From a virus, in IMG/VR virus record IMGVR_UViG_3300048837_000975, positions 1 to 64,000 of that record: a stretch of 64,000 nt of DNA; one strand, 5' to 3'. Of this stretch, positions 1 through 35,431 are shown in pieces. Position numbers and translations under genes: made by a program. Every line of letters begins with the position of its first letter. Position 1 is the stretch's first letter. The notes under the pieces are model-generated. The model was not told the DNA's origin. It searched no databases and worked only from the letters and a program-made list of their open reading frames with translations.

Positions 1-50
1 GCAAGGAGCGTGATCTCAACTTCATCGAGGCGCAGCTTCCTAACCGTCAT
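1..50 (-). CDS. hypothetical protein, 5' end only
   Basis: An ATG at 48-50 on the minus strand opens a frame reading MTVRKLRLDEVEITLL before the window ends. A purine-rich AAAGGAAAG stretch lies just upstream as a likely ribosome binding site. It is the first gene after the hammerhead ribozyme at 69-120, so its messenger would start with the ribozyme's 5'-hydroxyl product. Too little is present to suggest a function. Confidence 0.55.
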   Translation of the reverse strand, partial: MTVRKLRLDEVEITLL

Positions 51-68: not shown

Positions 69-120
69 GGACTCATCAGCGCTGGCCTTACCAGCGGACC
101 GGGTTTCCCCGGTTTCGTCC
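69..120 (-). ncRNA. type II hammerhead ribozyme (copy 1)
   Basis: Read on the minus strand, the 52 nt contain the full hammerhead core. GGAC (stem II 5' strand) is followed by GAAA. A 5-bp stem III with a GAAA tetraloop then leads to the cleavage triplet GUC. A 6-bp stem I (CGCTGG/CCAGCG, loop TAAGG) leads to CUGAUGA and then GUCC, the stem II 3' strand. Stem II is the open helix, which defines type II. Predicted self-cleavage is between minus-strand bases 97 and 96. The first G is also the last base of the TAG stop of the gene at 120-314. Confidence 0.93.
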
Positions 121-314
121 TAACACGCTTCGATCGTGTGCCAGGTGACCTCACCCTTGCGAACCATCGACCATGCGATATCGTCCTTTTCGTCAAACAG
201 GGCGACCGATATCTCGGCGTGCTCAGGAGCGTTAACGAACAGCGGAAGGTCCACCACTAGGGCCGAGCATTCGAGCCCGCAGTATGTCCCGTGAAACAGG
301 TATGACTTTCTCAT
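120..314 (-). CDS. hypothetical small protein (64 aa)
   Basis: A 64-residue protein with no family I recognise. It has a Cys pair near residues 12-16 and a mixed acidic/hydrophobic composition (for example ISVALFDEKDD). Its ATG overlaps the TGA of the gene before it (ATGA at 311-314), indicating translational coupling. Its TAG stop overlaps the first base of hammerhead copy 1, so the messenger would end 24 nt after the stop once the ribozyme cuts. Confidence 0.7.
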   Translation of the reverse strand: MRKSYLFHGTYCGLECSALVVDLPLFVNAPEHAEISVALFDEKDDIAWSMVRKGEVTWHTIEAC

Positions 315-529
315 AGATCAACCCACTGTTGGCAGCTGTCGCACCACCTTGAGGTTCCAGGCGCATGGCACGGATCATCCGCTTCCGGATGATCGCACCG
401 GATCGCGTACGACCCGATAGGCTTCACCCGTCCGAACGCGTCAATCCGTTCGCGTTGCGGCTTGTTCCTGGCGACCGGGATTCCCTGCAACGTCTTTACG
501 GGACGGAGCCCGAGTTTCGTGGTTCTCAT
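311..529 (-). CDS. hypothetical small protein with C-terminal Cys/His cluster
   Basis: A 72-residue basic protein. The C-terminal third carries C-D-H, then P-C-H, then W-C-D-S-C (about residues 45-68), a spacing that could bind one zinc ion. The start overlaps the stop of the preceding gene (TAATG) and the stop overlaps the next start (ATGA), so it sits in a tightly coupled trio with no ribozyme between its members. Function unknown. Confidence 0.7.
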   Translation of the reverse strand: MRTTKLGLRPVKTLQGIPVARNKPQRERIDAFGRVKPIGSYAIRCDHPEADDPCHAPGTSRWCDSCQQWVDL

Positions 530-747
530 TATCCAACCAGCTTAAAAGCGATCGAAGCCATCCGGTAAACCGGCAGGGCTACGAACTTGATCTTATTCTC
601 GTCGCTCAGCTTCTCATACACGGCGAGAATCGCGCTCGCGCTGTAGGTGTCGAGGTTCACACCGTCGACTCGGCCGAGTGTCTTCTCACTTGCGATCTTT
701 CGGATCTTCGAGATCCGATCGATCGCGATCCTGTTCTTACTTGCCAT
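529..747 (-). CDS. hypothetical small protein (72 aa)
   Basis: A 72-residue protein beginning MASKNRIAIDRISKIRKIA, with a strongly basic N-terminus and a predicted helical C-terminus. The ATG at 745-747 is preceded by a GGGGG run as a plausible ribosome binding site, in the 13-nt gap after hammerhead copy 2. It would therefore be the first gene on the RNA released by cleavage of that ribozyme. No recognised domain. Confidence 0.7.
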   Translation of the reverse strand: MASKNRIAIDRISKIRKIASEKTLGRVDGVNLDTYSASAILAVYEKLSDENKIKFVALPVYRMASIAFKLVG

Positions 748-760
748 TCAAACCCCCGTT

Positions 761-812
761 GGACTCATCAGGCGGCGCGCTACGCCGCGACCCGCCGGAG
801 CGGGTTTCGTCC
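761..812 (-). ncRNA. type II hammerhead ribozyme (copy 2)
   Basis: The minus strand reads GGAC-GAAA, a 5-bp stem III (CCCGC/GCGGG with loop TCCG), the cleavage triplet GUC, a 6-bp stem I (GCGGCG/CGCCGC with loop TAGCG), CUGAUGA and GUCC. Every invariant core base matches the hammerhead consensus, and the helices differ in sequence from copies 1 and 3 while keeping their pairing, which is covariation inside one window. Cleavage is predicted between bases 789 and 788. The 5' G lies in the TAG stop of the gene at 812-1096. Confidence 0.93.
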
Positions 813-1096
813 TAGTCAGCATTCCTAACGTCGAGCGTTCCGTGCACGTAAAGGTTCCCGCGGTGGAACCGCCGGTGCGTTACTATGAACTTGTCTCGCT
901 CGCTGAACGTTTCAAACTCCTCGGCTGAGAAGTTTTCCTTCCAATCGCGAGGCTCATCTACGCTAATAAAGTCACCGTCGACCAGAACCACCGTCCAACG
1001 CTTGCGCGCGTCGGAGCTTGTAAACTGTCCGGTGCTTTTCAAAAACTTCCCGGTCAAGGCTACGACCGAGCCGACCGTGATATCTCGCTTTGCCAC
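812..1096 (-). CDS. hypothetical protein, possible small beta-barrel
   Basis: A 94-residue protein with a GTG start at 1094-1096, chosen because GGGAGG lies 7 nt upstream. The first half (ITVGSVVALTGKF, then RWTVVLVDGDFISVDEP) alternates hydrophobic and polar residues as in SH3-like or KOW-type small barrels, but no family motif is certain. It lies between hammerhead copies 3 and 2, so it is predicted to end up on its own excised messenger. Confidence 0.75.
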   Translation of the reverse strand: MAKRDITVGSVVALTGKFLKSTGQFTSSDARKRWTVVLVDGDFISVDEPRDWKENFSAEEFETFSERDKFIVTHRRFHRGNLYVHGTLDVRNAD

Positions 1097-1108
1097 TTCA
1101 ACCTCCCT

Positions 1109-1163
1109 GGACTCATCAGCGCACGCCTTACGTGCGGACCGCCCGAGCGGGGCGGTTTCGTCC
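1109..1163 (-). ncRNA. type II hammerhead ribozyme (copy 3)
   Basis: The minus strand reads GGAC-GAAA, a 6-bp stem III (CCGCCC/GGGCGG with loop CGCTC), the cleavage triplet GUC, a 6-bp stem I (CGCACG/CGTGCG with loop TAAGG), CUGAUGA and GUCC. It is 55 nt long, with cleavage predicted between bases 1137 and 1136. The stem I loop TAAGG is identical to copy 1, although the stems are not. The element starts inside the TAG of the gene at 1163-1438 and ends 6 nt before the ribosome binding site of the next gene. Confidence 0.93.
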
Positions 1164-1438
1164 TACTTGTTAACCTCGACCTCTAGTTGCGCCATGGTTG
1201 CGACCATCCGCTCCAGCGCGTCTGAATCGAGTTTTCCGCACCCTACCGGAGCGCCTACCGGAGACCGGAACCAAACACCGCCGCTGTAAACGTACACGGT
1301 TCCCAGAACCAAGGCGTAGGTCACTGGCTCCGGAAAGCGGGTCGGAACCGGATCCCATCGCGTATCTCGGACGCCGGCTTTCGGCTCGACCTTCACAACG
1401 CGGCCGAACTTGCCAACCCTGATCGTTAACTCACTCAT
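1163..1438 (-). CDS. hypothetical protein (91 aa)
   Basis: The frame is open to 1504, but the ATG at 1438 (MSELTIRVGKFG) is preferred because GGGAGG lies 9 nt upstream; the upstream part would run through the tRNA-like hairpin. The protein is beta-rich in its middle (TYALVLGTVYVYSGGVWFRSP) and ends in a helix. No family recognised. It is the promoter-proximal gene of the ribozyme-punctuated operon and is followed directly by hammerhead copy 3. Confidence 0.72.
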   Translation of the reverse strand: MSELTIRVGKFGRVVKVEPKAGVRDTRWDPVPTRFPEPVTYALVLGTVYVYSGGVWFRSPVGAPVGCGKLDSDALERMVATMAQLEVEVNK

Positions 1439-1473
1439 GCTTTCAAACCTCCCAGGCTCATCACTTGAGCCGG

Positions 1474-1520
1474 GTTCCGCGCGAGGTATCGAACCTCGTA
1501 ACATCTCATGACCGCGGAAC
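1474..1520 (-). ncRNA. tRNA-like mini-element (acceptor stem plus T-arm)
   Basis: A 47-nt minus-strand segment folds into a perfect 7-bp acceptor-like stem (GTTCCGC/GCGGAAC). This encloses a canonical T-arm: a 5-bp CGAGG/CCTCG stem closed by the 7-nt loop TTCGATA. Only 15 nt (with a possible CAT/ATG 3-bp hairpin) stand where D-arm and anticodon arm would be, and no CCA is encoded. It cannot be a normal tRNA. It could be a tRNA remnant, a processing signal or a mimic. It sits 35 nt upstream of the first gene of the ribozyme operon. Confidence 0.5.
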
Positions 1521-1890
1521 TTGTTTTCAACTAGGGCTTTGCTGCATTCAGACTAGGTCGACGATGCACTACCCACACCGTTTTCCGACCTACTGTAAGC
1601 TGGCGATCCCCTGCTTGTCCGGCTAAGGCCGGAGAGCAGGTTACCCTCTGCGCTTGTTTTCAAAGTTCAACCGGGGGCTCCCCGGAGCGTTTCGGTTTCC
1701 CGACCCGCTTGCCTCACTCACTCTAGCTTGTCTTACGTCGGGGGCTCGTACTTTCTTCCTGCCCCTTCACTTTTCTTCTCTTCTCTTCTCGCCCTCCCTT
1801 TCGGGAGTTTCTCGGGCGGGCCGTTTCGGCCCCCTTCTATTCTTACGCGCGTCCCCCGGGTTTTCTCCCCCGGGGTTCTGTCGCGTCTCA

Positions 1891-1904
1891 CAGGGTACTA
1901 TAGC
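1891..1904 (+). repeat. 14-mer shared with 44981-44994
   Basis: CAGGGTACTATAGC here and CAGGTTACTATAGC at 44981-44994 differ at one base. Both lie in the two large GC-rich non-coding regions. Neither has a TTG-type -35 at the right spacing, so the element does not look like the phage's usual promoter. Confidence 0.45.
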
Positions 1905-34281: not shown

Positions 34282-34310
34282 ACCATATCATCCGTACGCT
34301 TCGGTTTCAA
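34282..34310 (-). promoter_or_regulatory. leaderless-type promoter at 34.3 kb
   Basis: TTGAAA, 17 bp, TATGGT, then exactly 6 nt to the ATG at 34275. It lies in the gap behind the GIY-YIG gene, so the invader is followed by its own restart of transcription. Confidence 0.62.
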
Positions 34311-35431
34311 CCGGAATCTTTGTTCCGATGTCGATTTTTCAAAGGGGCTAGGAGCTTGGCTAGAGAGGAACCTCCAGGGAGACCGCGAGCGCCAGAGTAT
34401 AGTGCACTATGATAAGCTGCCCATGTGTCTCCAGGATGACCGTTCTCAACTTTTCCAGAATGAACAGAAGGCCACCTCCCTTTGGATCTGTTATGTTCTG
34501 CTGCTCGTTCGAGTATAAATTCTGTGTTTATCGGCCGTTTGTTGCTTATGTTCTGAACCCCAAATCTATCCTCGAACAGCTTAGCAAGAGAGCTTCCTCC
34601 AAGCAGCCCTCTGGCACCGGTCATTAGCGCCGTATTGTAACCACTCCACGTGTCAGTTTCGTATCCACCGTCAACGCGACCCGAGTACTGCGTTGGCCAG
34701 CTCCCGTGCCGCCAGAAGAATCCCAATGCCATGTCTGAGACAAAATCTTCTGTTAGCCTGGGAAGTGCCGCCTTATTTGGCACGCCAAACCTTTCACTAA
34801 GTAGTTTTGCTAACGATGAACCTCCCGGAAGACCCCTTAGTCCTTCGCGAAGCGCGTATTCGTACCTACCCCACGTGTCGCGAATATGTCCTCCGGGGAC
34901 CTGTTCCTCCGTCGTTGCTTTCGGCCAATTTCCCGTCAGTGCGCGATACTCAAGCGCTCTTTCTGCTATGAAGCTCTCGGTTACATGAAGACCCCTTCTT
35001 CCTTGACCACCGAGCGTGGCGTTGTAGCCAAAGGAAGGACACCAACCAATGAAAGAGCGAAACGCTTTAACGAACCTAGGCTCCATCTCGGCGAGCGACA
35101 GGTCCCTTTCGTCTGACGCAAAAAGTATCTCATGCAGAAATACGTCAGACCCATACTTTCTTATTGCTCTTTTGAATACGTAGTCATATCCGCACCTGTG
35201 CTTTTTGCAGCTCTCAGTTTTGTGAAACGACCATCTGCTTGTTGGATTCGCAGCAAATCCCACATACGAGAACTCCCGCTCAACCCCGTCCACGACCTTC
35301 ACATGGTAGTGCCGGTAGACGTAGTACAGTGGCGCGTTCGGATCCGAAATGACGTGCGAGTACAGCGGGCTCTTCGTCCACTGCACTCCCCGTCGATTCA
35401 ACCTCGAGATGGTATCAATCTCGTCGGACAT
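34307..35431 (-). CDS. GIY-YIG endonuclease with three C-terminal repeats
   Basis: A 374-residue protein. Residues about 35-115 are a variant GIY-YIG nuclease (LYYVYRHYH, FSYVGFAANPTSRW, YVFKRAIRKYGSDVF with the conserved Arg helix, and a later Glu). Residues about 150-365 hold three copies of a 65-residue unit, each ending in an almost identical G-x-RGL-x-GGSSLAKL. Earlier in each unit are a G-x-WP motif and a D-T-W-x-x-Y motif. The units are probably DNA-recognition modules specifying a homing site (inference). Confidence 0.8.
   Translation of the reverse strand: MSDEIDTISRLNRRGVQWTKSPLYSHVISDPNAPLYYVYRHYHVKVVDGVEREFSYVGFAANPTSRWSFHKTESCKKHRCGYDYVFKRAIRKYGSDVFLHEILFASDERDLSLAEMEPRFVKAFRSFIGWCPSFGYNATLGGQGRRGLHVTESFIAERALEYRALTGNWPKATTEEQVPGGHIRDTWGRYEYALREGLRGLPGGSSLAKLLSERFGVPNKAALPRLTEDFVSDMALGFFWRHGSWPTQYSGRVDGGYETDTWSGYNTALMTGARGLLGGSSLAKLFEDRFGVQNISNKRPINTEFILERAAEHNRSKGRWPSVHSGKVENGHPGDTWAAYHSALYSGARGLPGGSSLAKLLAPLKNRHRNKDSG

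Follow-up and report, generated by a model that had tools for sequence, protein, structure and literature searches.

Nine type II hammerhead ribozymes at the gene junctions of a phage genome

What do self-cleaving ribozymes do in phage genomes? The role of phage hammerheads has been a standing question since their discovery in 2011, and the locus presented above raises it again: an initial annotation described three hammerheads there, each placed between the stop codon of one gene and the ribosome-binding site of the next, and took them to cut a polycistronic message into units. Here, we analysed the whole stretch of DNA (referred to below as the window), which comprises bases 1-64000 of a virus record of 125,690 bases, together with the record itself.

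All three elements are type II hammerheads lying on the minus strand at the coordinates first given for them (E1-E3 in Table 1). Each contains the GAAA, the GUC cleavage triplet and the CUGAUGA of the core together with three helices, in the order GGAC-GAAA-stem III-UC-stem I-CUGAUGA-GUCC, the permutation of type II. Loops close stems I and III, and stem II is open, as described before. Stem III is capped by a UCCG tetraloop in E2 and by GAAA in E3. Since C17 occupies the first position of each predicted cut in Table 1, the new 5' ends are predicted at 1136, 788 and 96, the same positions as those proposed initially. Two further points were noted correctly, the overlap with the upstream TAG, on whose G each element begins, and the ribosome-binding site that follows; the start codons at 1096, 747 and 50 lie 12, 13 and 18 nt past E1, E2 and E3. 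In a search with the Rfam model RF02276 (Hammerhead_II), E1 and E2 scored below the curated cut-off of 37 bits, which is a detection threshold and not a structural definition, and the elements do have the defining structure; E3 was absent from the matches up to E 10. The elements share permutation, core and helices with this family and align over the full model, but have a shorter stem I and loop and a 4-bp GGAC/GUCC stem II.

The number of elements, three in the initial annotation, rises to nine in the whole record. The covariance model used (R1) was built from 36 elements with the nine of this phage included, and the scores of these nine are therefore partly a matter of construction; it finds exactly nine elements in the 125,690 bases, all on the minus strand, with E-values between 7e-21 and 1.7e-18, and no further element at E up to 1. 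As a chance control, the strict pattern was read backwards and gave 0 matches in the record, and a chance origin of E1-E3 is excluded. The full core (GAAA, a U-H cleavage site and CUGANGA) and the three helices are present in all nine. The array spans 5.6 kb, from 1163 down across the joined ends of the record and then from 125603 to 121263. A 45-aa open reading frame crosses these joined ends, which makes a circular or circularly permuted record the most likely case; no terminal repeat was found in it.

The idea that every gene junction might be occupied comes close to the truth. In the run of 12 genes (g1-g12), an element is found at all nine junctions with a positive gap, whereas the two junctions at which genes overlap (g3/g4 and g4/g5) have none, nor is there one upstream of g1 or after g12. 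Occupancy was counted in this record; in foreign contigs the simple gene caller mis-called open reading frames over elements. The upstream stop codon ends at +1 of stem II in E1-E4 and at 0 in E9, and it lies 1 nt ahead of stem II in E5 and E6, 8 nt ahead in E7 and 31 nt ahead in E8, so that in seven of the nine it overlaps stem II or is within 1 nt of it. The downstream start codon follows 12-27 nt past the element throughout the array.

Table 1. Ribozyme elements, genes and leader of the array, numbered as in the virus record
Feature	Position	Strand	Remarks
E1, type II hammerhead, g1/g2 junction	1109..1163	-	predicted cut 1137/1136; g1 TAG 1165-1163 gives G to stem II; RF02276 34.0 bits
E2, type II hammerhead, g2/g3 junction	761..812	-	predicted cut 789/788; g2 TAG 814-812 gives G to stem II; RF02276 24.2 bits
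E3, type II hammerhead, g5/g6 junction	69..120	-	predicted cut 97/96; g5 TAG 122-120 gives G to stem II
E4	125603-125551	-	outside window
E5	125231-125180	-	outside window
E6	124945-124894	-	outside window; one stem II mismatch
E7	123704-123653	-	outside window
E8	122272-122221	-	outside window
E9	121314-121263	-	outside window
g1, 91 aa, first array gene	1163..1438	-	no family match; ends in TAG fused to E1
g2, 94 aa, GTG start	812..1096	-	no family match; ends in TAG fused to E2
g3, 72 aa	529..747	-	one-base overlap with g4; junction without ribozyme
g4, 72 aa	311..529	-	four-base overlap with g5; junction without ribozyme
g5, 64 aa	120..314	-	ends in TAG fused to E3
g6, 45 aa, 5' part	1..50, on across joined ends to 125603	-	starts after E3; TAG fused to E4
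Leader upstream of g1, noncoding, strongly folded	1439..1900	-	-186 kcal/mol, z -5.4 versus shuffles

Across the nine elements 99.3% of pair cells are standard pairs. The covariation seen initially in three elements is borne out by all nine, with 26 double-changed cells in comparison to 8.5 in shuffles and at most 7 in slid controls. It is located in stems I and III and confined to them in the array, since stem II is invariant within this phage save for E6; variation of stem II is found in the wider sets described below. Stem III and stem I each occur in two types, and all four combinations are found (E2, E3/E7, E5 and E6). This pattern suggests that elements have recombined or undergone gene conversion with one another, the conserved core being the place of exchange. 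The 3' half and the tail are common to E3, E6 and E7.

We also assessed the predicted folding. An element together with its downstream tail folds into the hammerhead structure in seven of nine cases; in E6, which has the mismatch, stem II is not predicted to form. When flanks or upstream context were added, stem II competed with other folds in several elements, and uniform activity can therefore not be assumed. Folding with flanking sequence, which could have shown the ribozyme to be masked by the coding sequence upstream, was mixed and gave no consistent picture. In the IMG/VR set described below, the base ahead of stem II is mostly an A and loop I mostly opens with a U, which is consistent with a contact between loop I and stem II. 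Such a contact is known for hammerheads. Contacts of the loop I to stem II type were shown by Perreault et al. 2011 (PMC3088659); the pseudoknot between loop I and the 3' tail, common in the elements of that study, is not evident by eye in those of this phage.

Counterparts of the array occur in other phages. A pattern scan of IMG/VR returned at least 119 stretches, and at least 169 distinct elements in at least 109 loci pass the stem tests, their pairing being partly by construction. Among the matches listed, the upstream stop lies at -1 to +3 of stem II in 77 of 165 (36 at +1 and 26 at 0), in comparison to 0-2 of about 160 in controls with shifted anchors, and a start codon is found within 60 nt downstream in 158 of 169. 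The A before stem II (148/168) and the U opening loop I (147/168), again among the matches listed, were not fixed by the search. For the same listed matches, the stem III tetraloop is UNCG in 35 and GNRA in 30, together 65 of 78, and the G+C content of stem III is 27 points above that of its own contig. Counted over whole records, there are 12 elements in G028, eight in G007 and in G017, and seven in G030 and in G044.

The last of these array records is related to Streptomyces phages, and six cultured ones (L222-L227: Dryad, Wentworth, ShakeNBake, Gibson, Yara and phiRKBJ001) carry 42 type II hammerheads, 6-8 each, on the gene strand and unannotated in their records. At corresponding junctions the stem sequences have been replaced, yet the core and the pairing persist, with covariation over the 42 elements. 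The annotated start lies 11-17 nt past the end of the element in 39 of the 42. Stops are found mostly 3-14 nt upstream (3 to 777 nt overall, with some elements more than 600 nt from the annotated stop); fusion with the stop codon is thus common but not universal. One Yara element (L226:13915-13982) lies inside an annotated gene, and the gene call may therefore be wrong.

The nearest relative found, a distant one of matching genome size (G057, 125,036 bases), encodes a MoxR-like protein 49% identical to that of our phage, a VWA protein (41%) and a virion protein (41%). It has homologous genes and no element, and the array is therefore dispensable and has been gained or lost in the course of phage evolution. 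Close relatives sought by the MoxR-like and VWA proteins were not found, and blastn of the array neighbourhood against phages gave no match. The virion protein search yielded 47 distant loci with no element in their records by the R1 model, a run without its own positive control; the model had found all nine elements of our phage and matches in 49 of 50 other records. In bacteria and archaea the strict TAG-fused pattern is rare, with five stretches in 84,980 genomes. Two loci, in assemblies of Phycicoccus jejuensis and Streptomyces iakyrus (L229 and L230), have three equally spaced elements each; this likeness reflects either the same phage in both or cross-contamination. A candidate that we rejected is L127:2014-2076, from the sole contig returned by a scan for the exact stem III pattern: by eye it is a type I hammerhead with open stem I, from an unrelated phage, it has only stem III and its GAAA loop in common with E3, and its record gave no R1 match.

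The explanation that we favour, and hold to be probable, is an intercistronic array of type II hammerheads by which one transcript cleaves itself at gene junctions into short mRNAs with protected ends. The anatomy agrees with the cutting of a polycistronic message proposed initially, and we infer the cleavage itself. No convincing same-strand promoter or terminator was found within the array, which hints at a single transcript. One long minus-strand phage transcript would thus cleave itself at up to nine gene junctions, constitutively or nearly so, with each cut falling between stem III and stem I. The upstream mRNA would end just past its stop codon in the stable hairpin of stem III, bearing a 2',3'-cyclic phosphate, and the downstream mRNA would open with a 5'-hydroxyl on the stem I hairpin, shortly before its start codon. 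The products would be one- to three-gene mRNAs, expressed and decaying independently. Cleavage by a hammerhead leaves a 2',3'-cyclic phosphate and a 5'-hydroxyl, groups that are unfavourable to 3' exonucleases and to the 5'-monophosphate-dependent RNase E/J. The main routes of mRNA decay in bacteria would act poorly on mRNAs with such ends, and a hairpin lying flush with each end should protect them further. However, the stable tetraloops may serve ribozyme folding only and have no role in decay, which would count against this explanation. The stem II mismatch of E6, the competing folds of stem II, the element-free G057 and the consensus hammerheads that did not cleave in PMC3088659 (four of 18) speak against it as well.

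Alternatively, cleavage would not be constitutive but would require that the gene upstream is translated, so that cutting times or senses translation. As some bases of the stop codon are also those of stem II and the flanking A, a ribosome at the stop would cover the 5' part of the ribozyme. That stops in unrelated phages peak sharply at 0 and +1 of stem II speaks for such gating, as does the position of the stop within 1 nt in seven of our nine elements. The stop can also supply a conserved base, since UAG, UAA and UGA can all provide the A that precedes stem II so frequently; the U opening loop I is about as frequent. Compact genomes alone, however, favour abutting stops, and a conserved A beside a G easily makes UAG; moreover, the stops of the Streptomyces phages lie mostly some distance upstream, and folding with upstream sequence was inconsistent. 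We therefore regard gating by ribosomes as unlikely. The same doubtful standing is given to its more specific form, in which the stop would be an integral part of the ribozyme (the conserved flanking A being supplied by UAG, or by UAA or UGA as their last base, and the G of UAG opening stem II) and terminating ribosomes would switch cleavage on or off, coupling cutting to translation of each gene in many unrelated phages.

It is slightly less likely still that the elements control the downstream gene only, by giving its mRNA a fixed 5' end with the stem I hairpin and leaving the ribosome-binding site free, in which case the end of the upstream mRNA would be incidental. The narrow distance from element to start in the Streptomyces phages, as against the broad distances to the stop, fits this, and so does the halovirus element 13 nt before a helicase start, where the mapped 5' end of the transcript is at most 3 nt from the cut (PMC3088659). 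Yet in our phage and in many IMG/VR contigs the element is placed more tightly relative to the upstream stop than to the start, and the extra-stable tetraloops cap stem III, the hairpin that the upstream mRNA would retain. The mixed stem types and the shared 3' halves and tails would also suit recombination linkers or selfish repeats, i.e., boundary DNA that shuffles gene cassettes or spreads, with RNA cutting secondary. This we consider improbable: diverged phages change the sequence at corresponding junctions and keep core and pairing, a mark of selection on the RNA fold and not on DNA homology, and no element lies away from gene junctions in the record. That the elements are non-functional look-alikes, as the damaged stem II of E6 and the element-free relative G057 could suggest, is hardly credible given nine complete cores on one strand, strong covariation and none elsewhere in the record.

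The self-cleaving array that we favour has a precedent. The initial annotation presented the placement at successive stop codons as an undescribed regulatory design, and this does not stand, since the clusters, the proposed role and native-array cleavage are all in Perreault et al. 2011 (PMC3088659). That work described natural type II hammerheads and clusters flanking single genes or short blocks in (pro)phages, proposed the cutting of long transcripts into single-gene or operon-length mRNAs, and showed that native tandem (pro)phage arrays cleave in vitro and in E. coli; four of 18 consensus hammerheads tested did not cleave. Our array resembles those clusters in having several elements on one strand around single genes or short blocks of a phage genome. 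It differs in that nine elements of one type are packed into 5.6 kb and occupy all positive-gap junctions in a run of 12 genes, and in the overlap or near-contact of stop codon and stem II at seven of them. The main text of PMC3088659 does not mention stop codons, and a search of the open-access literature gave no later paper that deals with type II arrays of phages. What we have not found reported, therefore, is an array of this length and occupancy and the systematic use of stop-codon bases as part of the ribozyme. The hammerhead of haloviruses HF1/HF2 (PMC3088659) likewise lies shortly before a start codon in a virus and heads a polycistronic unit, but it is a single element with a variant core. 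The HDV-like theta ribozymes of gut phages (PMC10879173), likewise small and self-cleaving, also occur in phage transcripts and are proposed to act in RNA processing, but have a different fold and are tied to suppressor tRNAs; by ARAGORN, no tRNA was found in the window or in record positions 105000-121500 (L168), and the adjacent tRNA of the theta type is thus not seen here. The array makes strict predictions, namely nine cut sites, hairpins at both new ends and fused stop codons, and the cultured Streptomyces phages, which can be grown on laboratory strains and have comparable and naturally differing arrays, make the role of the ribozymes in gene expression directly testable. Should cutting prove ribosome-dependent, it would represent a new way of coupling RNA processing to translation.

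Of the genes in the array, g9 encodes a MoxR-like AAA ATPase, g10 a DUF2201 metallopeptidase/VWA-like protein and g11 a protein with a DUF6744 match; searches with the small array genes gave no family match. Recoding of UAG was considered and dropped: the genes use all three stops and the long ones read normally in the standard code. The leader upstream of g1, for which no Rfam match was found, is possibly the 5' part of the array transcript, as we infer. Its 3' end (about 1523-1472) resembles a tRNA acceptor stem and T arm without D and anticodon arms; ARAGORN found no tRNA there, and a 24-nt probe found no host tRNA and was absent from bacterial genomes. The structure may be a processed RNA or an attachment site. 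This noncoding region also holds G+C-rich direct and inverted repeats, at positions 1984-2180 of the window. Farther away, positions 34307-35431 of the window carry a probable homing endonuclease gene on the minus strand (PHROG matches, E 2e-14).
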